Below are positions 2,923 through 16,429 of a stretch of 20,393 nucleotides of DNA, piece by piece. A model generated the notes under the pieces. It searched no databases. It was not told the DNA's origin and saw only the letters and a list, made by a program, of their open reading frames with translations. The stretch's first letter is position 1, and every line of letters starts with the position of its first letter. Location: positions 1 to 20,393 of IMG/VR virus record IMGVR_UViG_3300043410_002385, one strand, 5' to 3'. A program made the position numbers and the translations under genes. The stretch comes from a virus.

Positions 2923-3402
2923 ATGAAATGCTGGGTCTGCTCAAGACAGGCCCGGGGGTACGGCCATACCGACAACCGGCATGGCATCGGCCACCCCCGG
3001 CGCTATCCCATCGACTGGGTCTTCTGTTCCCGCCGTTGCCAGGACGCTTTCCATCGCATGTACGGCAGCTGGGTGGATGCCCAGAAGTTCGGCAAGGAGG
3101 TCGAGATGATCGACGCTTCTGACATCGAACGCGCGGCCATGCGCCAGTGCCTCAAGGCCTTCGGTGAGGCCGCTGGCGAGATCGGCTTTGCCAAGCCGCT
3201 GGGTAATTACTCCGAGTCCGAGGCTCTGCGAGTGATCGACGCCATCGTGACTGGTTACACGGATGCCATGGCGGCGCACCACGAAGCCAGCAAGTTCCCT
3301 CCGGTGCGCGGCATGCCACCGACGCCGGATCCACTCGCGCACCCGTTTGCCGATCTGGAGGACGACTTTCCGTGGGACGAGCCGAAGGGGAAGAAGACAT
3401 GA
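2923..3402 (+). CDS. DUF6511-like phage protein with zinc-binding cysteines
   Basis: This 159-residue protein starts at ATG 2923, after a clear GGGAGGG ribosome site. The N-terminus carries two cysteine pairs, C3-x2-C6 and C35-x3-C39, spaced as in a small treble-clef or zinc-ribbon knuckle, with a Gly/His/Arg-rich loop between them. The middle (about 60-115) is helical. The C-terminal 40 residues are Pro/Asp-rich and probably disordered. The pattern matches what I remember of DUF6511, found in proteobacterial phages among replication genes. Function is unknown; a nucleic-acid-binding accessory role is plausible. Its stop overlaps the nuclease start (ATGA). Confidence 0.7.
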   Translation: MKCWVCSRQARGYGHTDNRHGIGHPRRYPIDWVFCSRRCQDAFHRMYGSWVDAQKFGKEVEMIDASDIERAAMRQCLKAFGEAAGEIGFAKPLGNYSESEALRVIDAIVTGYTDAMAAHHEASKFPPVRGMPPTPDPLAHPFADLEDDFPWDEPKGKKT

Positions 3403-4136
3403 TCGACTTCAACTCTTCGGCCAGTGTCTCTGGCCAGCTCACGGCCCTGGTGGATGCCGGGATGCAGCGTGCCCGGGCTTCCGAGTCAGGTCGGGATTAC
3501 CTTGGCGCGTCACGTCTGGGTGTGGCTTGCGAGCGCGCGCTGCAATACGAATTCGCCAAGGCGCCCATCGACAGTGGCCGTCGCCTGGAGGGGCGCATGC
3601 TGCGCATCTTCGAGCGTGGCCATGTGATGGAGGATTGCATGGTTGCCTGGCTGCGCGCAGCCGGGTTTGACCTTCGCACCCGAAAGGCCGACGGCGAACA
3701 GTTTGGCTTTTCGGCGGCTGACGGGCGGCTCAAGGGTCACGTCGATGGCGTGATCGTTGCCGGTCCCGAGGGTTTTGCATATCCCGCCTTGTGGGAGAAC
3801 AAGTGCCTGGGCAACAAGTCCTGGCGCGACCTCGACAAACACAAGCTGGCTGTCTCCAAGCCCGTCTACGCGGCGCAAGTCGCGATCTACCAAGCCTATC
3901 TCGAACTGCACGAGCATCCGGCCATCTTCACGGCGATCAACGCCGACACCATGGAGATCTACACCGAGCTCGTGCCCTTTGATCCTGCGCTGGCGCAGCG
4001 GATGTCGGATCGGGCCGTCAAGGTCATCACCGCCACCCAGGCCGGGGAGCTGCTGCCGCGCAGCTACAACGACTCGACCCATTTCGAATGCCGCATGTGC
4101 GCCTGGCAGGACCGCTGCTGGAGGAATCACACATGA
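3399..4136 (+). CDS. PD-(D/E)XK exonuclease, RecB/Cas4-like, with likely Fe-S cluster
   Basis: This 245-residue nuclease begins at ATG 3399, which overlaps the previous stop. The PD-(D/E)XK core is visible: His75 (RGH), Asp116 (HVDG), Glu133-x-Lys135 (ENK), and the RecB-family Q-x3-Y motif at Gln160/Tyr164. One early cysteine, Cys44 (GVACERAL), and a C-terminal trio, Cys231-x2-Cys234-x5-Cys240, give the 1+3 arrangement seen in Cas4 and AddB nucleases that bind a 4Fe-4S cluster. It probably resects phage DNA to make single strands for the Sak4-like annealer and SSB encoded just upstream. Nothing suggests a CRISPR role: there are no other cas genes or arrays here. Metal and cluster content are inferred from motifs. 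Confidence 0.85.
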   Translation: MIDFNSSASVSGQLTALVDAGMQRARASESGRDYLGASRLGVACERALQYEFAKAPIDSGRRLEGRMLRIFERGHVMEDCMVAWLRAAGFDLRTRKADGEQFGFSAADGRLKGHVDGVIVAGPEGFAYPALWENKCLGNKSWRDLDKHKLAVSKPVYAAQVAIYQAYLELHEHPAIFTAINADTMEIYTELVPFDPALAQRMSDRAVKVITATQAGELLPRSYNDSTHFECRMCAWQDRCWRNHT

Positions 4137-6654: not shown

Positions 6655-6793
6655 CCCCATGAAAACCGCGCATCTGACGGATCGGACAGACCTTGTCGAA
6701 ACCCCTATATCCCGCGCGTCACGCGCACGTGTAGAGAGTTACGTCAAAACCTGTCCGATCCGTCAGACCGAACCAAAAACAAGGACTGACAAC
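6655..6793. other. Intergenic leader between primase-helicase and resolvase
   Basis: This 139-bp gap is the only sizeable break inside the early operon. It holds the 17-bp inverted repeat (6673-6767) and, between its arms, a 6-1-6 dyad at 6714-6726 (GCGCGT C ACGCGC). The resolvase frame is open across the whole gap from an ATG at 6659 that has no ribosome site, so a 45-residue N-terminal extension is possible but unlikely. Regulatory DNA, an RNA structure or an origin-proximal element are the main options. Confidence 0.6.
6673..6767. repeat. Perfect 17-bp inverted repeat, 61-bp spacer
   Basis: The left arm at 6673-6689 reads TCTGACGGATCGGACAG. The right arm at 6751-6767 is its exact reverse complement. 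Perfect 17-bp complementarity in a 139-bp gap is not expected by chance. In RNA it would form a long stem closing a 61-nt loop; in DNA it could be a pair of binding sites for a dimeric phage protein. Confidence 0.85.
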
Positions 6794-7264
6794 ATGAATA
6801 CGACCATCCTCGCCCTCGATCTGGGCACCACAACAGGCTGGGCACTGGCCTGCCGCGACGGCAGCATCACCAGTGGCAGCCAATCCTTCAAACCGCAACG
6901 CTTCGAAGGCGGCGGCATGCGCTTCCTTCGGTTCAAGCGCTGGCTCACCGACATCAAGCAGTGCAACGACAGCATCGACCAGGTGGTCTTCGAAGAGGTC
7001 CGCCGCCACGTCGGTGTCGACGCTGCACACGCCTACGGCGGCTTCATGGGCCAGTTGACCGCCTGGTGTGAGCACCATCAGATCCCGTACCAAGGCATTC
7101 CGGTCGGCACGATCAAGAAGCACGCCACCGGCAAAGGCAACGCCAGCAAGGACGAGATGGTGGCATCCGTCCGTGCACGCGGCCACAGCCCAGCAGACGA
7201 TAACGAGGCCGACGCCATCGCCTTGCTGTACCTGGCCCGTGAGATGACGCAGGAGGGGGTGTGA
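6794..7264 (+). CDS. RuvC-like Holliday junction resolvase
   Basis: This 156-residue RNase H-fold nuclease is like phage RuvC proteins. It opens with the hallmark strand ILALDLGTTTGWAL, carrying catalytic Asp9. A VVFEEVR segment holds the second acid (Glu67 or Glu68). The C-terminal DDNEADAIALLYLA block holds the last acids (Asp136 and Asp140). ATG 6794 is chosen because the conserved strand begins within five residues of it; the in-frame ATG at 6659 would add a low-complexity extension. The enzyme would cut branched recombination or replication intermediates made by the upstream Sak4-like, nuclease and helicase genes before packaging. Confidence 0.88.
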   Translation: MNTTILALDLGTTTGWALACRDGSITSGSQSFKPQRFEGGGMRFLRFKRWLTDIKQCNDSIDQVVFEEVRRHVGVDAAHAYGGFMGQLTAWCEHHQIPYQGIPVGTIKKHATGKGNASKDEMVASVRARGHSPADDNEADAIALLYLAREMTQEGV

Positions 7265-7265
7265 C

Positions 7266-7475
7266 ATGAAAGTGCCGCAATACCGCTACCGCTGCCCCCT
7301 GGGCAATCTGCAGCCGACCACGCCGGATCTGGACGTCGTCAAACGCGAGGGCTGGCGCAACGACCACATCCTGGTGGTGTCGGAAGAAGACGAGCGCCTG
7401 GACTGGATCGAACGGCAATTCGTCCGTCGCCTGGGTGAACGCCTCTACGGGGATGGAGGCAAGCGCCATGACTGA
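7266..7475 (+). CDS. Small phage protein of unknown function
   Basis: This is a 69-residue protein with a strong purine-rich ribosome site (AGGAGGGGG, near 7250-7258) and a start 1 bp after the resolvase stop. It begins MKVPQYRYRCPLGNLQPTTPDLD and ends in a charged helical stretch (EEDERLDWIERQFVRRLGERL). It has no clear domain or membrane segment. The stop overlaps the next start region by 8 bp, so it belongs to the same operon. I do not recognise it. Confidence 0.65.
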   Translation: MKVPQYRYRCPLGNLQPTTPDLDVVKREGWRNDHILVVSEEDERLDWIERQFVRRLGERLYGDGGKRHD

Positions 7476-7893
7476 GACCCGAACCGAATGGACCGCTGAG
7501 GACGTAGCGGCCCGCTTTGCCGAGGCGGCCGAAACCGCACACAAGCTGCCCAGGGTCCGCCCGGGCGGCTACTTCAACCCCTGGATGACGCTGGCTATGC
7601 ATGTACCCGAGCGCTACCCCGACCCCGATCGGCTGTACCGGCCCATGCCGCCCAGTCCACAAGCGGTGGAGAGGATGCTCGAGACCATGCGCTGGGTGCA
7701 GTGGCTGGAGGTGGAGCAGCGGCATCTGGTGTGGATGCGCGCCAACCGCTACGAGTGGCAGCAGATTGGCAGACGCTTTGCCTGTGACCGGAACACGGCG
7801 GCGCGGCGGTGGAACAAGGCGATCTCACTTGTTTTGTTGCACCTGAATCACCCACATATCTGCAGGCCCAAAGCCATGAGTCAGGGAGGGTAA
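7468..7893 (+). CDS. DUF6362-like protein with helix-turn-helix
   Basis: This is a 141-residue protein. ATG 7468 is preferred to the upstream ATG at 7435 because GGAGG sits about 10 bp before it and the 8-bp overlap with the previous gene is compact. Residues about 75-125 contain WVQWLEVEQRHLVWMRANRY, then WQQIGRRFACDRNTAARRW: an HTH in which a helix, a turn and a recognition helix with repeated arginines are easy to see. This matches my memory of DUF6362, found at the end of phage early operons. It resembles the HTH of sigma-like or late-gene regulators, so control of the following methyltransferase/late genes is a reasonable inference only. Confidence 0.7.
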   Translation: MTETRTEWTAEDVAARFAEAAETAHKLPRVRPGGYFNPWMTLAMHVPERYPDPDRLYRPMPPSPQAVERMLETMRWVQWLEVEQRHLVWMRANRYEWQQIGRRFACDRNTAARRWNKAISLVLLHLNHPHICRPKAMSQGG

Positions 7894-8242: not shown

Positions 8243-9667
8243 ATGACGCCCAACCTGCAGATCGAATACCGCCCGATCGATGCGCTGCTGCCCTACGCGC
8301 GTAATCCGCGTACGCATTCGCCAGCCCAGATCGCCAAGATCGCGGCCAGCATCGTGGAGTTCGGCTGGACCCAGCCCATCCTGGTCGATGGCGACAACGG
8401 GATCATTGCCGGCCATGGTCGCCTGGCAGCGGCGCGCAAACTGGAACTGGTCGAAGTTCCGGTCATCGAGTTGGGCCATCTGAGTCCGGCGCAGAAACGC
8501 GCCTACGTGATCGCCGACAACCGCCTGGCTTTGGACGCCGGCTGGGACGATGAACTGCTGGCACTGGAATTGGCGGAGCTGTCCGAAGCAGGATACGACC
8601 TGCTGCTGACCGGCTTCGAGGATGACGAGTTGGCCAAGATGCTGGCCGACCTCGGTGACGATGGCGATGCAGCGCCGGAGCAGGATTCGGATCTCGAAGC
8701 AGACGATGAGGTCCCCGAGCCACCCAAGCAGCCGATCAGCCGTCCCGGCGATGTCTGGCAACTGGGCCCGCACCGCCTGATCTGCGGCGATGCCAGTGAT
8801 CCGTCGGTTATCGCTACCCTGATGCAGGGTGAGCAGGCGAGCCTGTGCTTCACGTCGCCGCCCTACGGCAACCAGCGTGACTACACCTCGGGCGGCATCG
8901 CTGACTGGGATGGTCTGATGCGTGGCGTGTTCGCCCAGGTGCCCATGGCTCCCGATGGCCAGGTGCTGGTCAATCTCGGACTGATCCACCGCGACAACGA
9001 GTTCATCCCGTACTGGGACCAGTGGCTCGCCTGGATGCGCAGCCAAGGCTGGCGGCGCTTTGCCTGGTACGTCTGGGATCAAGGGCCAGGCATGCCTGGT
9101 GACTGGCAAGGTCGCCTGGCCCCCAGCTTCGAATTCATCTTCCACTTCAACCGCCAGACCCGCAAACCCAACAAGACCGTGCCCTGCAAGTTCGCCGGCC
9201 AGGAAACCCATCTGCGTGCCGATGGCTCATCGACCGCGATGCGTGGCAAGGACGGCCAGGTCAACGGCTGGACTGCAGCAGGTCAGCCCACCCAGGACCA
9301 CCGCATCCCTGACTCGGTGATCCGGGTCATGCGCCACAAAGGAAAGATCGGCAAGGACATCGACCATCCAGCGGTGTTCCCGGTGACGCTCCCTATAGAG
9401 GTCATCGAGACCTACACGAAGAAAGGCGAGATCGTCTTCGAACCCTTTAGCGGCAGCGGCACCACGCTGATGGCCGCCCAGCGTACCGGGCGCATTGGCC
9501 GGGCCGTCGAGATCGCACCCGAGTACGTCGATGTGGCGCTGATCCGTTTCCAACAGAACTTCCCCGGCGTGCCGGTCACCTTGGCCGCCACCGGAGAACC
9601 CTTTGAGTCCGTTGTCCAGCAACGCAACACCGAGCGCCGACAAGAGAGCGAACATGCAATTGTCTGA
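8243..9667 (+). CDS. ParB-domain DNA methyltransferase, TSPPY type
   Basis: This 474-residue fusion has a ParB/Srx-like domain at residues about 5-110, with the signature AGHGRLAAARKL and IADNRLALDAGW. A linker to about residue 170 follows, then a methyltransferase domain. Catalytic motif IV is TSPPY at 204-208, and the SAM-binding motif is EPFSGSGTT at 400-408. Motif IV precedes motif I, so it is a beta-class enzyme. TSPPY is more typical of N4-cytosine enzymes, but base specificity cannot be settled by eye. It probably modifies phage DNA, guarding it against host restriction. There is no good ribosome site: only GGCGGG inside the terminator's 3' arm lies upstream. No restriction endonuclease is nearby. 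Confidence 0.88.
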   Translation: MTPNLQIEYRPIDALLPYARNPRTHSPAQIAKIAASIVEFGWTQPILVDGDNGIIAGHGRLAAARKLELVEVPVIELGHLSPAQKRAYVIADNRLALDAGWDDELLALELAELSEAGYDLLLTGFEDDELAKMLADLGDDGDAAPEQDSDLEADDEVPEPPKQPISRPGDVWQLGPHRLICGDASDPSVIATLMQGEQASLCFTSPPYGNQRDYTSGGIADWDGLMRGVFAQVPMAPDGQVLVNLGLIHRDNEFIPYWDQWLAWMRSQGWRRFAWYVWDQGPGMPGDWQGRLAPSFEFIFHFNRQTRKPNKTVPCKFAGQETHLRADGSSTAMRGKDGQVNGWTAAGQPTQDHRIPDSVIRVMRHKGKIGKDIDHPAVFPVTLPIEVIETYTKKGEIVFEPFSGSGTTLMAAQRTGRIGRAVEIAPEYVDVALIRFQQNFPGVPVTLAATGEPFESVVQQRNTERRQESEHAIV

Positions 9668-10103
9668 ACATTTCGAACTGGCCGAGTTTCTGGTCTCAGA
9701 GACCGCCGCACGCCGTGGCATTGCCAATGAACCCACGCCGGAGGTTATCGAAAACCTGCGTCGGCTGTGTCAGTTGGTGCTGCAGCCTCTGCGCATCCAG
9801 CTCGCTCGCCCGGTGGTCATCACATCTGGGTACCGCTCACCGGCACTGAACCGCGCCGTGGGTGGCAGTAAGACCAGCCACCACATGCAGGGGCGCGCCG
9901 CCGATCTCATCGTGCCAAGGCTGCCGCCGCTGGCCGTCTGCCAAACCGCACAGCAGATGAAACTACCCTGCGTGCAGATCATTCACGAGTTCGGTCATTG
10001 GGCGCATTTAGCGGTGGCCCTGCCGAGCGAGCGCACCCAATTGCTGACGGCCAAGCTGGCGCAGGGCAAGACGGTTTACGAGCCGGGGTTGGTCCATGTC
10101 TGA
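9654..10103 (+). CDS. M15-family peptidase (D-Ala-D-Ala carboxypeptidase/endolysin-like)
   Basis: This 149-residue protein starts at ATG 9654 after a purine-rich AAGAGAG site, inside the end of the methyltransferase gene (14-bp overlap). The M15 zinc signature is clear: SGYRSPALN, then H77-x2-G-x-A-x-D84 (HMQGRAAD), then E112 and H118 in EFGHWAH. Enzymes of this family cleave peptidoglycan peptides and serve phages as endolysins or virion peptidases. No signal peptide or membrane anchor is visible, so export would need a holin. It overlaps the second methyltransferase by 8 bp. Its position between two methyltransferases, with no classical holin or spanin pair beside it, is unusual. Confidence 0.85.
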   Translation: MQLSEHFELAEFLVSETAARRGIANEPTPEVIENLRRLCQLVLQPLRIQLARPVVITSGYRSPALNRAVGGSKTSHHMQGRAADLIVPRLPPLAVCQTAQQMKLPCVQIIHEFGHWAHLAVALPSERTQLLTAKLAQGKTVYEPGLVHV

Positions 10104-11388
10104 ACCTTGGCTCTCCACCCATATCGAGCGCTGGCCCACCGAAAAGCTGGTGCCCTACGCCCGCAACGCTCGCACCCACTCCGAGGAGCAGGTGGCGCAG
10201 ATCGCCGCCTCCATCGTCGAGTTCGGTTTCACCAACCCGATCTTGGCCGACTCCGACGGCGTGATCGTCGCAGGACATGGTCGCTTGGCCGCCGCCCGGA
10301 AGCTGGGCCTGGACACCGTGCCCGTGGTCGTGCTCGATCACCTGACGCCCACTCAGCGCCGGGCGCTCATCATTGCGGACAACCGCATCGCAGAAAACGC
10401 CGGCTGGGACGATGCCATGCTGCGTATCGAGCTGCAGTCGCTGCAGGAGGATGGTTTCAACTTGGACATCACCGGCTTCGATGCCGACGCCCTGGCCGAG
10501 ATCATGGCCGGCGAGGAGACCACGGTCGATGGCCAGACCGACGATGATGCGGTGCCTGAGGTGCCGGTCACGCCGATCTCCCGTCCAGGGGATGTCTGGG
10601 AGCTTGGCAACCACCGCTTGCTGTGTGGCGACGCCACCGACCCAGCGAGTTACGAGGCGCTGATGGCCGATGCCATGTCCGACATGGTGTTCACCGATCC
10701 GCCGTACAACGTCGACTACGCCAACAGCGCCAAGGATAAGTTGCGCGGCAAGGACCGCCCGATCCTGAACGACAACCTGGGCGATGGCTTCTACGACTTC
10801 CTGTTGGCCGCGCTGACTCCGATGTTGGCGCGATGCGCTGGCGCCACTTACATCGCCATGTCCTCCAGCGAGCTGGACACGCTGCAGCAAGCTTTCCGGG
10901 CTGCCGGCGGCAAGTGGTCGACCTTCATCATCTGGGCCAAGAACACCTTCACGCTGGGCCGTGCCGACTACCAGCGCCAATATGAACCCATCCTCTACGG
11001 CTGGCCCGAGGGGCAAAACCGCCACTGGTGTGGTGACCGCGACCAGGGCGATGTCTGGAACATCAAGAAGCCGCAGAAGAACGATCTGCACCCGACCATG
11101 AAGCCGGTGGAACTGGTCGAGCGGGCCATCCGCAATTCCAGCCGACCAGGAGATACCGTGCTTGATCCCTTCGGCGGCTCTGGGACAACCCTGATCGCCG
11201 CAGAAAAGTCCGGCCGCATCGGCTGGCTGATCGAACTCGATCCCAAGTACGTGGACGTGATCGTGCGCCGATGGCAGGACTGGAGTGGGCAGGAGGCTTG
11301 CCGGGAAGCCGATGCGGTCAAGTTCAATGACCTGGCGGCAGCGGAAGGCATGTCGACCCCAGCAGATTCAGCGGCGGCCAACGCATGA
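10096..11388 (+). CDS. ParB-domain DNA methyltransferase, DPPY type
   Basis: This 430-residue paralogue of the upstream methyltransferase has a ParB-like domain at residues about 5-115 with the same blocks (IAASIVEFG, AGHGRLAAARKL, ISRPGDVW). The catalytic motif is DPPYN at 201-205 and the SAM motif is DPFGGSGTT at 357-365, again in beta-class order. DPPY is the usual motif of N6-adenine enzymes. The block between the motifs (including IIWAKNTFTLGR and LHPTMKPVELVERAI) matches known phage ParB-methyltransferases. It starts within the M15 peptidase gene and its stop overlaps the next start (ATGA), so the four genes form one operon. The likely role is phage DNA modification or gene regulation by methylation. 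Confidence 0.9.
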   Translation: MSEPWLSTHIERWPTEKLVPYARNARTHSEEQVAQIAASIVEFGFTNPILADSDGVIVAGHGRLAAARKLGLDTVPVVVLDHLTPTQRRALIIADNRIAENAGWDDAMLRIELQSLQEDGFNLDITGFDADALAEIMAGEETTVDGQTDDDAVPEVPVTPISRPGDVWELGNHRLLCGDATDPASYEALMADAMSDMVFTDPPYNVDYANSAKDKLRGKDRPILNDNLGDGFYDFLLAALTPMLARCAGATYIAMSSSELDTLQQAFRAAGGKWSTFIIWAKNTFTLGRADYQRQYEPILYGWPEGQNRHWCGDRDQGDVWNIKKPQKNDLHPTMKPVELVERAIRNSSRPGDTVLDPFGGSGTTLIAAEKSGRIGWLIELDPKYVDVIVRRWQDWSGQEACREADAVKFNDLAAAEGMSTPADSAAANA

Positions 11389-11633
11389 AACAGTCGCGCC
11401 TGATGTCTCTGGTGGAGTCGCTGGTCAATGTGCTGGTCGGGTATGGCGTGGCAGTGGCCACGCAGATGGTGGTCTTCCCGATATTTGATCTCGCCGTGAC
11501 CGTCACGGAGAATCTGTTGATCGGCCTGATCTTCACGGTCGTGTCGATCGTGCGCAGCTACGCACTGCGCCGGGGCTTCGAAGCCCTGCGGGTGCGTCAA
11601 TCCGCAATCGCCTCTTCCACGATCTCGCAGTGA
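11385..11633 (+). CDS. Small two-helix membrane protein, DUF7220-like
   Basis: This 82-residue protein starts by an ATGA overlap with the methyltransferase. Two hydrophobic helices are visible, at about residues 8-32 (starting SLVESLVNVLVGYGVAVATQ) and 40-60 (ENLLIGLIFTVVSIVRSYAL), followed by an Arg-rich cytoplasmic-type tail. The pattern fits my memory of DUF7220, found in proteobacterial phages near methyltransferases. A two-helix protein next to an M15 peptidase could be a holin, but the family is not established as such. The last 37 bp overlap the end of the opposite-strand gene. Confidence 0.75.
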   Translation: MKQSRLMSLVESLVNVLVGYGVAVATQMVVFPIFDLAVTVTENLLIGLIFTVVSIVRSYALRRGFEALRVRQSAIASSTISQ

Positions 11634-13850: not shown

Positions 13851-14441
13851 ATGGGACTGTCCATTCGCGCCTACGCGCGCCACCGAGGCGTGTCGCACGT
13901 GGCCGTCAAGAAGGCCATCGACACGGGGCGCATCACGCCTTTGCCGGATGGCACGATCGATCCGTTGGCGGCCGATGCCCAGTGGGCGGCCAACACCACG
14001 CCGACCAGGCGGTCAGTAGCGGCCGAGCCCCAAGAGGCGCCGCAGACTGCCGCAGCAGCAGTCCGCACGATTCCGCAAGCATCCGCATCTGCCAGCAGCC
14101 GTCCGCAGCGTGATGTCGCTGAACCACCGACGCCGGCGCTCTCTACCGGCGGTACGTCGCTGTTGCAGGCGCGCACCGTCAACGAAGTCGTCAAGGCGCA
14201 GACCAACAAGGTTCGCCTGGCTCGCCTCAAAGGCGAACTGGTTGATCGCTCGCAGGCTGTGGCCCACGTGTTCAAGCTGGCCCGTGCCGAGCGGGATGCC
14301 TGGCTCAACTGGCCGGCGCGCATCTCGGCGCAGATGGCCGCTGGCCTGAACGTCGATCCCCATGTGCTGCACGTCGCGCTGGACGCCGCCGTACGCCAAC
14401 AGCTGCAGGACCTGGGCGACTTGCAGCCGAAGGTCGACTGA
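13851..14441 (+). CDS. Terminase small subunit (Nu1-like)
   Basis: This 196-residue protein is encoded immediately before the large terminase, with which it shares a TGATG overlap. The N-terminal 45 residues form a helix-turn-helix (IRAYARHRGVSHVAVKKAID), as in the cos-binding domain of lambda Nu1-type subunits. An Ala/Pro/Ser-rich linker (about 50-105) follows, then a helical C-terminal half (VRLARLKGELVDRSQAVAHV), likely for oligomerisation and large-subunit contact. It would recognise the packaging site on phage DNA. No good ribosome site precedes ATG 13851; the nearest AGGAGG (13813-13818) is 33 bp away, so expression may be weak. Confidence 0.82.
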   Translation: MGLSIRAYARHRGVSHVAVKKAIDTGRITPLPDGTIDPLAADAQWAANTTPTRRSVAAEPQEAPQTAAAAVRTIPQASASASSRPQRDVAEPPTPALSTGGTSLLQARTVNEVVKAQTNKVRLARLKGELVDRSQAVAHVFKLARAERDAWLNWPARISAQMAAGLNVDPHVLHVALDAAVRQQLQDLGDLQPKVD

Positions 14442-16429
14442 TGGGTGGACTGACCATGGATGAGTCGTTTTACGAAGGCTGGGACGCGATCGAGCGCGCC
14501 TGGCGCGAAGGCCTCACGCCCGATCCGCTGCTCACGGTGTCTGAGTGGGCTGACGAACACCGGGTGCTCTCCAGCAAGGCGGCCTCCGAGCCGGGGCGCT
14601 GGCGCACCAATCGCACGCCTTACCTGCGCGAGATCATGGATTGCTTGTCGCCCATGTCGCCGATCGAGCGGGTGGTGTTCATGAAGGGGGCACAGGTCGG
14701 CGGCACCGAACTGGGCCTGAACTGGGTGGGCTATGTGATCCACCACGCCCCGGGGCCGATGATGGCGGTGTGGCCGACCGTGGAGATGGCCAAGCGGGCC
14801 TCGAAGCAGCGCATCGACGCGCTGATTGAAGAAAGCCCGGCCATCCAGGAGCGGATCGCGCCGGCACGCAGCCGGGACTCGGGCAACACCATCCTGGCCA
14901 AGGAGTTCCATGGCGGGGTGCTGGTGATGACCGGCGCCAACAGCGCGGTCGGCCTTCGCTCGATGCCTGTGCGCTACCTGTTCCTGGACGAGGTCGACGG
15001 CTACCCGCTGGATGTGGAAGGCGAAGGCGATGCGATTTCGCTGGCCGAGGCGCGCACCCGCACCTTTGCCCGACGCAAGATCCTGATCGTCTCGACGCCA
15101 ACCATTGCCGGGGCGAGCGCGGTCGACCGGGAGTTCGAAGCCTCGGACCAGCGCCGCTACTTCGTGCCGTGCCCGCACTGCGCACACCGTCAGTGGCTGC
15201 GCTTCGAGCAACTGCGCTGGGAGAGCGGACAGCCGGAAACAGCGGCCTACATCTGCGAAGGCTGTGCCGAACCCATCGCCGAGCACCACAAGACATGGAT
15301 GCTGGAAAACGGCCAGTGGCAGGCCTGCGCGCCAGAGAACGCCGGTCGCACGGCAGGTTTCCATCTCTCCAGCCTCTACAGCCCGGTCGGTTGGCGCAGC
15401 TGGATCGAGATTGCCCGAGCCTGGGAGTCGGCAGCGATGTCCGACACGCGTTCGGCTTCGGCCATCAAGACCTTCAAGAACACCGAACTGGGTGAGACCT
15501 GGGTCGAGGAGGGCGAAGCGCCGGATTGGCAGCGTCTGCTGGAGCGGCGGGAGGATTACCGCGTCGGCACCGTGCCCACGGGCGGCTTGCTGCTCACGGC
15601 TGGCGCCGACGTCCAGAAAGATCGGATCGAAGTCTCGGTCTGGGCCTTTGGGCGGGGCAAGGCGGCGTGGCTGGTGGAGCACCGGGTGCTGATGGGCGAC
15701 ACCGCCAGAACCGATGTGTGGTCAGCCTTGGCCCAGCTGATGGGTGAAACCTGGACCCACAGCAGTGGTTGCCAGCTGAGCTTGGCGCGTATCGCTCTCG
15801 ATACCGGCTACGCCACCCAGGAGGCCTATGCCTTCGTGCGCAGCGTGCGCGATGCCCGACTCATGCCCATCAAGGGCATTTCCGGGGGCGCGGCGCTGAT
15901 CGGCACACCCACGGCAGTGGATGCCACCGCCAGTGGCAAAAAGCTGCGCCGTGGGATCAAGGTGTTCCCAGTGGCAGGCGGCATTGCCAAGCTGGAGTTC
16001 TACAACAACCTTCGCAAGAGTGCGGAGGTGGCCGAGGACGGCGTGACGACCATCTACCCGGCGGGCTACGTGCATCTGCCCAAGGTCGACGCCGAATACT
16101 TGCAGCAACTCTGCGCCGAGCAGTTGATAAACCGGCGCGATCGCAACGGCTTCGCCCACCGCGAGTGGCAAAAGATGCGTGAGCGCAATGAAGCGCTCGA
16201 CTGTTACGTCTACGCCCGAGCCGCTGCGGCAGCGGCAGGCCTGGACCGGTTCGAGGACCGCCACTGGCAAGAACTGGGAAAACAGCTCGGTGTCGGTCCA
16301 CCGACCGATGCTGTCCCTACTAACACCCCCGAGGCCCCCCGAGAACAACGGTTCGACGGTGGCCTCAGCACTTCTGGCAGCACCCCGGCGCCCGCACGGC
16401 GTGTGGTGCGCAGCCGATGGATGACCTGA
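14441..16429 (+). CDS. Terminase large subunit (lambda gpA family)
   Basis: This 662-residue packaging motor/nuclease of the GpA type starts at ATG 14441, supported by the TGATG overlap (a second ATG is at 14456). The ATPase domain shows a degenerate Walker A at 82-90 (KGAQVGGTE) and Walker B LFLDE at 180-184. A CxxC pair at 244/247 and a CxxC-like pair at 272/275 form a zinc knuckle typical of the family. The RNase H-like nuclease domain starts near AGADVQKDRIEV with Asp390. The enzyme cuts concatemers at cos and pumps DNA into the procapsid. The C-terminal 50 residues are Pro/Thr-rich and probably bind the portal. A gpA-type terminase implies cos packaging. Confidence 0.95.
   Translation: MGGLTMDESFYEGWDAIERAWREGLTPDPLLTVSEWADEHRVLSSKAASEPGRWRTNRTPYLREIMDCLSPMSPIERVVFMKGAQVGGTELGLNWVGYVIHHAPGPMMAVWPTVEMAKRASKQRIDALIEESPAIQERIAPARSRDSGNTILAKEFHGGVLVMTGANSAVGLRSMPVRYLFLDEVDGYPLDVEGEGDAISLAEARTRTFARRKILIVSTPTIAGASAVDREFEASDQRRYFVPCPHCAHRQWLRFEQLRWESGQPETAAYICEGCAEPIAEHHKTWMLENGQWQACAPENAGRTAGFHLSSLYSPVGWRSWIEIARAWESAAMSDTRSASAIKTFKNTELGETWVEEGEAPDWQRLLERREDYRVGTVPTGGLLLTAGADVQKDRIEVSVWAFGRGKAAWLVEHRVLMGDTARTDVWSALAQLMGETWTHSSGCQLSLARIALDTGYATQEAYAFVRSVRDARLMPIKGISGGAALIGTPTAVDATASGKKLRRGIKVFPVAGGIAKLEFYNNLRKSAEVAEDGVTTIYPAGYVHLPKVDAEYLQQLCAEQLINRRDRNGFAHREWQKMRERNEALDCYVYARAAAAAAGLDRFEDRHWQELGKQLGVGPPTDAVPTNTPEAPREQRFDGGLSTSGSTPAPARRVVRSRWMT

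Follow-up and report, generated by a model that had tools for sequence, protein, structure and literature searches.

Proteins that join a ParB-like module to a DNA methyltransferase (MTase) are common in phages, and we found no experiment that settles their job. Here we analyze two such proteins, MT1 and MT2, encoded in a 20,393-nucleotide stretch of viral DNA (IMG/VR record IMGVR_UViG_3300043410_002385, positions 1 to 20,393), which we refer to as the window. The nearest named phage to the window is Acidithiobacillus phage AcaML1 (megablast pieces of 78% identity over 20% of the window). AcaML1 (JX507079) carries the same two genes as Gp24/Gp25 (MT1 63% and MT2 76% identical), with their order and context unchanged, and the surrounding gene order is similar. 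It differs from the window in having no M15 peptidase gene between the two, in its TSPPYA motif, and in an MT1 ParB module that is 72% identical to its own MT2 ParB.

Wolbachia phage WO has two slightly different methylase copies, met1 and met2, on two prophages, according to the part of PMC3089641 that deals with them. These resemble MT2 (about 50% identical, ParB followed by an MTase whose catalytic motif IV is DPPY), and in one WO region the methylase gene lies upstream of the terminase. They differ in their DGHLR-type ParB, and the two WO regions that we fetched contain no TSPPY partner. In Paracoccus prophages, 36 ParB-MTases lie upstream of the terminase in the ParB-terminase (ParB-Tls) locus, the same interval as that of MT1 and MT2, with ParB fused to an MTase of the N6-methyladenine/N4-methylcytosine (m6A/m4C) type; the available portion of that report describes no coupled TSPPY/DPPY pair (PMC6536676). 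PADLOC model PDLC03229 (type II MTase) matches MT2 over nearly its full length with 691 bits, and its best stretch in MT1 is residues 6-210, mostly the ParB half (254 bits for the whole protein, in two stretches). ParB-MTases, their locus and the two methylase genes of AcaML1 are thus already known. In the open-licence literature we found no description of a coupled TSPPY/DPPY pair or of ParB exchange, which is not proof of absence. We give about an even chance to the view that MT1 and MT2 are a coupled orphan modification cassette that would mark phage DNA at fixed sites before packaging.

MT1 and MT2 as a linked pair

The two genes, their modules and their motifs are located as follows (SAM, S-adenosylmethionine; aa, amino acid residues).

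8243..9667, + strand: MT1, ParB module plus TSPPY-type beta-class amino-MTase, 474 aa
8243..8650, + strand: MT1 ParB module (aa 1-136), AGHGR motif
8852..8866, + strand: MT1 motif IV TSPPY (aa 204-208)
8903..9358, + strand: MT1 middle segment (aa 221-372), presumed target-recognition region
9440..9466, + strand: MT1 motif I EPFSGSGTT (aa 400-408), SAM site
10096..11388, + strand: MT2, ParB module plus DPPYN-type beta-class amino-MTase, 430 aa
10096..10506, + strand: MT2 ParB module (aa 1-137), AGHGR motif
10696..10710, + strand: MT2 motif IV DPPYN (aa 201-205)
10744..11079, + strand: MT2 middle segment (aa 217-328), presumed target-recognition region
11164..11190, + strand: MT2 motif I DPFGGSGTT (aa 357-365), SAM site

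An earlier note on this DNA had described two ParB-MTases of common architecture with different catalytic motifs. Both open reading frames (ORFs) were confirmed (PF01555, PHROG 498, 38% identity), as was the difference in motif IV, TSPPY in MT1 versus DPPYN in MT2 (FTSPPYGNQRDY versus FTDPPYNVDY). PF01555 (N6_N4_Mtase, cut-off 26.7 bits) is matched with 81.3 bits by MT1 (1.3e-22) and 93.5 bits by MT2 (2.5e-26), and PHROG 498 covers most of both proteins, with 389 bits for MT1 (aa 2-469) and 555 bits for MT2. For ParB_N (PF02195, cut-off 26.3 bits), MT1 scores just below the cut-off (24.0) and MT2 just above it (26.4). Beta-class amino-MTases are ordered as motif IV, then the target-reading segment, then motif I; in both proteins motif IV precedes the middle segment and motif I is close to the C-terminus. 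A BLASTP alignment of the two spans 444 positions at 38% identity (E=8e-81), and hence their likeness is beyond chance. This likeness is uneven, however: 57% in the ParB modules, 56% in the flank around motif IV and 43% in the flank with the C-terminal motifs, with no useful alignment of the middle segments.

We searched IMG/VR with MT1 and with MT2, keeping the best 80 loci each time (many contigs were common to both searches). Both genes were present in 77/80 loci from the MT1 query, in 72 of 77 further loci from the MT2 query, and in 79/80 kept GTDB loci. In all nine loci with one gene missing, the contig ends beside the gene. A sample of 274 genomes from the class of G001 (the Cupriavidus pauculus genome of locus L172, itself included) held seven MT2 orthologues (75-82% identity), each adjoined by MT1; three distant DPPY ParB-MTases in that sample (39-45%) had no MT1 within the 3.8-4.3 kb fetched. 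Among the 79 GTDB pairs, 66 junctions were placed and 11 more contain an M15 peptidase gene. A four-base overlap joins the stop of MT1 to the start of MT2 at 60 of the 66.

The context of the pair also recurs. Upstream, in GTDB loci that offer 5 kb or more of sequence on that side, lie genes for a resolvase (65/68), a DUF6362 protein (64/68) and a primase (62/68), and downstream, with the same minimum, lies the gene for the terminase large subunit (52/59). The pair thus sits between replication genes and terminase, and it is found in prophages of many beta- and gammaproteobacteria. Collectively, these data show that MT1 and MT2 form a stable cassette.

Several loci depart from this arrangement. 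In L222 (4778-5316, Caldimonas), about 540 bases without a match to the window proteins searched separate MT1 from MT2, and in L015, a metagenomic contig, MT2 is broken into two reading frames, which could stem from a sequencing error. In L395, the partner of an MT1-like enzyme is a DPPYG ParB-MTase of the AmM-1/ctOK67 type; the gene order is reversed, and the two genes again meet in a start/stop overlap. In L394 (6994-8623), near a phage tail-fibre gene, a single base separates a ParB-less TSPPYAHQR MTase from a D12-class m6A MTase downstream of it; this is the same predicted pairing of marks as for MT1 and MT2, but with an unlike partner. Aeromonas phage ST4 (L243, 1299-4383) has two neighbouring ParB-MTases, both DPPY and not sisters in our tree, suggesting that tandem ParB-MTases also arise in another way. 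Finally, the ParB-MTase gene is preceded by a gene for SAM synthetase in Gardnerella phage AB1 (L257, 2162-2947) and Streptococcus phage Javan29 (L261, 1-938). Such phages appear to bring their own methyl-donor supply.

Around the pair, the window contains the following genes.

6719..7264, + strand: RuvC-like resolvase, upstream of the pair (PHROG-type match; start codon uncertain)
7435..7893, + strand: DUF6362 protein, upstream of the pair (Pfam)
9654..10103, + strand: M15_3 peptidase, endolysin-like, between the MTases (ATG at 9654, stop at 10103; PF08291, 5.5e-21; PHROG 894, endolysin)
11385..11633, + strand: DUF7220 small protein, in ATGA overlap with the MT2 stop
13851..14441, + strand: terminase small subunit, downstream of the pair
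14441..16429, + strand: terminase large subunit (GpA), downstream of the pair

As for MTases of the ParB-terminase locus, the ParB-MTase genes of the window precede the terminase genes. The earlier note had called MT1 and MT2 tandem. They are a linked pair, but in the window the Peptidase_M15_3 gene (9654-10103) separates them and they are not directly adjacent. This gene overlaps MT1 by 14 nucleotides and MT2 by 8, and DUF7220, matched in 9/80 GTDB loci, overlaps MT2 by 4. An M15 gene lies inside 26 of 77 IMG/VR pairs from the MT1 query, 19 of 72 from the MT2 query and 11 of 79 GTDB pairs; the majority of related loci have none, and it is not a constant part of the pair. A lysis-type gene within a modification operon is odd.

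Predicted marks and conserved middle segments

Motif IV of the form (S/T)PP(Y/F) goes with m4C enzymes, and (D/N)PP(Y/F) with m6A enzymes. Based on this motif, the mark of MT1 is most likely m4C and that of MT2 most likely m6A. Sequence searches agree weakly with these predictions, in that the m4C enzyme PvuII ranks second for MT1 and m6A enzymes rank high for MT2. The portions of two methylome studies that we could draw on (PMC8754150 and PMC7736820) tie no ParB-MTase to a motif. TSPPY was present in all 177 distinct MT1 sequences counted. In 8 of 166 distinct MT2 sequences, motif IV is SDLPYN (DLPY); these relatives include L007, L018, L027, L033, L112, L120 and L172, and their middle segment is unchanged.

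Structure models of the two proteins are weak, with a mean predicted local distance difference test score (pLDDT) of 63.7 for MT1 and 57.5 for MT2. Because the middle segments mostly fall below 50 (residues 277-380 in MT1), we read no target-recognition fold from them. The MTase part of the MT1 model matched M.BceJIV (Z 12.8), TTHA0409 (12.4), CcrM (11.3) and PvuII (11.1). M.BceJIV and CcrM are m6A enzymes, PvuII is an m4C enzyme, and TTHA0409 is uncharacterised. Residues 1-99 of MT1 (VIA-align) matched a ParB bound to cytidine diphosphate (Z 11.0), PadC (10.7) and sulfiredoxin (10.6), and the ParB part of MT2 matched Noc/PadC (Foldseek, 4e-5). The models thus give the N-terminal modules a ParB/sulfiredoxin (Srx) fold. 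A ParB that forms a clamp with cytidine triphosphate has a central helix-turn-helix DNA-binding domain; here, past about residue 100, short helices lead to the MTase, in a stretch where the models are weak.

In this MTase class, the middle segment reads the target DNA. To quantify conservation, we took 28 sequences per gene and averaged identities over pairs with less than 85% overall identity. In MT1, mean identity was 86% for the middle segment, 79% for ParB, 78% for each of the two flanking catalytic parts and 37% for the linker. In MT2, the corresponding values were 84%, 80%, 71% and 87%, and 61%. The MT2 of L235 is 87% identical to that of the window in the middle segment and 55% in ParB. 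Ratios of nonsynonymous to synonymous substitution (dN/dS) lay between 0.02 and 0.24 in all 66 comparisons with the window, for whole genes and domains. These data show that MT1 and MT2 are under purifying selection and that the middle segments are among their best-conserved parts.

This conservation bears on the main rival explanation, that the two marks protect the phage DNA against restriction by the host. Anti-restriction is the classic role of phage orphan MTases, two marks would widen the protection, and the type II MTase model of PADLOC covers almost all of MT2 (691 bits). Targets should vary in an arms race, however, and the recognition segments are strongly conserved across many beta- and gammaproteobacterial prophages, even when motif IV or ParB changes. 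A fixed target therefore fits better, and we consider anti-restriction rather unlikely, though it is the best placed of the rivals.

A second possibility, which we hold to be improbable, borrows from type IIS systems, whose M1 and M2 enzymes methylate opposite strands of one asymmetric site. MT1 and MT2 could divide one site in this way. Their near-obligate adjacency, their four-base coupling and the conservation of both middle segments would be consistent with this, and so would the recurrence of a TSPPY enzyme beside an m6A-type enzyme despite other partners (L395, L394). On the other hand, the middle segments of MT1 and MT2 do not align, and the related enzyme of L393 is solitary.

Ancestry of the catalytic domains and ParB modules

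According to the earlier note, one ParB-MTase was duplicated and one copy then changed its target base. Such an event would account for the 38% overall identity, the 57% identity of the ParB modules and the roughly 48% identity of the catalytic flanks. Among 22 MTase proteins from 21 phage records, motif IV is DPPY in 20, DAPY in Javan191 and TSPPY in PopTart (302 aa). Searches of 398 and 399 genomes with the MT1 MTase domain found TSPPYxxQR proteins that have an MT1-type catalytic domain and no ParB module, which may have been lost. These are L384/L393 (59% identical to the MT1 MTase; in a prophage, flanked by a RusA resolvase and a terminase), L385/L394 (41%; close to a tail-fibre gene) and the more distant L386-L391 (about 29%).

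In the whole-domain tree, MT1 falls outside the branch that holds MT2 and all sampled DPPY enzymes (support 100/99.9), and MT2 is sister to the Wolbachia phage WO methylases (97/94), as it also is in the smaller set described below. Constraining MT1 and MT2 together was disfavoured by the approximately unbiased (AU) test (p=0.0026, whole catalytic domain). With the middle segment removed, the flanks (114 columns) again united the DPPY side (100/99), and MT1 and MT2 held together gave p=0.025. The catalytic trees are unrooted, and the groupings behind p=0.0026 and p=0.025 were fixed after an earlier tree had been seen. PopTart, Shambre1, L112, L388, L389 and the solo MTase of L395 were left out of the whole-domain tree, and PopTart and the same solo MTases out of the flank-only tree. 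In a smaller set, before the ParB-less proteins were added, holding MT1 and MT2 together gave p=0.2, based on 14/25 representative pairs (selected with a similarity filter, some loci having been fixed in advance). A value of p=7e-58 for MT1 plus MT2 was set aside: that set had taken the unlike partner in L395 for an MT2 and had not placed L393 with the MT1 group, and it comprised 11 loci, L112_MT1 and four outgroup rows having been lost to the cutting pattern.

These data indicate, with moderate strength, that MT1 represents an old lineage separate from the DPPY ParB-MTases, MT2 among them, and has a middle segment of its own. That MT1 is a recent copy of MT2 is disfavoured; the catalytic halves appear to have parted long ago. 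Duplication within this phage group, as the earlier note would have it, is unlikely on the tree positions and both constrained tests, and the middle segments cannot be aligned. At the same time, the two domains do not come from wholly unrelated sources, since the flanks are about 48% identical. An ancient split is possible, older than the sampled DPPY ParB-MTases of Wolbachia, Streptococcus and Vibrio phages; it would need both a new motif IV and a new middle segment. Overall, duplication followed by a change of target base seems to us quite improbable, even with p=0.2 in the smaller catalytic set and the ParB kinship described below in its favour.

The earlier note had also called for separate trees of the two domains, and the ParB result differs from the catalytic one. 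In BLAST searches with the split protein, MT1 ParB was 57% identical to MT2 ParB and 55% to the ParB of an Anaerosphaera phage. A reduced ParB tree (13/25 representative pairs; L235, the two WO rows and five rows of poor alignment were excluded) is compatible with MT1 and MT2 modules as closest kin (AU p=0.44). An earlier value of p=0.0007 was set aside, being driven by the L235 MT2 with its WO-type ParB. In the main clade, ParB modules cluster by gene, MT1 with MT1 and MT2 with MT2, and any duplication must therefore be old. ParB may have joined the two MTase lineages once or twice.

Individual loci have a different history. The ParB modules of the L396 pair are 95% identical (91% in DNA) and group with 100/100 support; the partner there is cut by the contig end, its MTase part lying outside the sequence. 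Those of L395 are 74% identical (100/100), despite the DPPYG-type second enzyme. In L235 (7370-8662, Candidatus Accumulibacter), an MT2-type MTase stands behind a WO-type DGHLR ParB, a clear domain swap. ParB modules have thus been exchanged both ways in several lineages, and matching within a pair is not a rule. With all pairs included, none of 5000 shuffles reached the within-pair ParB similarity; this signal rests on L004, L395 and L396 only, and we set general within-pair matching aside. Gene conversion of the MT1 ParB in AcaML1 was hinted at by identity, and the trees fell short of establishing it (AU p=0.41-0.44).

A proposed role in marking phage DNA

How might the pair work? We propose that temperate phages carry MT1 and MT2 as an orphan, two-enzyme system for DNA modification. 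Both enzymes would be made together from the block between replication and packaging genes, their overlapping frames suggesting translational coupling. MT1 would write m4C and MT2 m6A, as motif IV predicts, each at a fixed sequence presumably set by its conserved middle segment. The ParB/sulfiredoxin-fold module may be an exchangeable tether, or an anchor responsive to nucleotide, through which the MTase reaches phage DNA. GxxR is the motif of ParB proteins that form clamps with cytidine triphosphate, and it is present in these modules as GHGR. Phage DNA would in this way be marked at fixed sites before packaging, and hence protected or recognised as the phage's own.

A number of observations weigh against this proposal or parts of it. 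The solitary L393 enzyme, in a prophage, means that pairing is not strictly required. Both marks are deduced from motifs, the structure matches of MT1 are too close to one another to tell its target base, and some MT2 relatives carry SDLPYN at motif IV. Common descent in a single phage group could underlie the conservation of the middle segments, an account weakened by the greater divergence of ParB modules and linkers in the same proteins. ParB modules are mismatched within some pairs (L365 47%, L383 45% and L235 as well; range 45-54%), and once L004, L395 and L396 are taken out, ParB modules resemble each other within pairs no more than under shuffling (408/5000).

The catalytic trees invite similar caution. 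The flank-only split rests on 114 columns and p=0.025, and the kinship of MT2 with WO is not recovered from the flanks (p=0.077 when held). MT1 and MT2 also begin their MTase domains alike, and the MT1 flanks are 48% identical to those of MT2, 50% to Shambre1, 49% to a Porphyromonas phage and 64% to L393, compared to 31-37% for the ParB-less L386, L387 and L391. Given the alike starts, the 48% and the distance of these three proteins, one old ParB-MTase ancestor for both enzymes is likely enough, and the absence of ParB from L393 and L394 may be no more than a loss.

A more specific version of the proposal, which we regard as doubtful, is a two-letter cassette in which m4C and m6A writers keep near-constant targets across prophage lineages, ParB is exchangeable, and the resulting signature is read in replication or packaging. 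The catalytic partners would stay together, or another m6A enzyme would be recruited, while ParB is swapped in or copied from the partner.

The proteins might instead be nick-and-modify enzymes, in which ParB nicks unmodified DNA and the MTase protects it, acting on rival DNA or in replication. The earlier note saw no nuclease partner, and none of the 20 window proteins scanned with Pfam is a restriction nuclease, further window ORFs lying outside that scan. One PD-(D/E)XK-superfamily match is found at 3372-4136, amid replication genes. A Bacillus cereus ParB-methylase has been reported to have nonspecific nicking activity (Xu 2012, as cited in the relevant part of PMC5512222), and so the lack of a separate nuclease gene leaves room for nuclease activity; the position of the pair beside replication genes would also fit. 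But that report concerns another protein, we identified no catalytic nuclease residue, and the same fold occurs in chains solved with nucleotide. We think this explanation quite unlikely. Equally unlikely, in our judgement, is that the marks regulate host or prophage genes in the lysogen: many assemblies of bacterial genomes contain the pair, presumably within prophages, but it lies between replication genes and terminase.

For the coupled modification cassette that we favour, the recurrence of the pair with near-unchanged target-reading parts points to a fixed job for two DNA marks, not to a recent duplication. The role of ParB-MTases becomes testable in a widespread pair that combines two predicted marks with strongly conserved recognition segments and ParB modules open to exchange. 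Should the targets indeed be fixed, the two marks would also be useful for recognising this prophage group in long-read sequencing.

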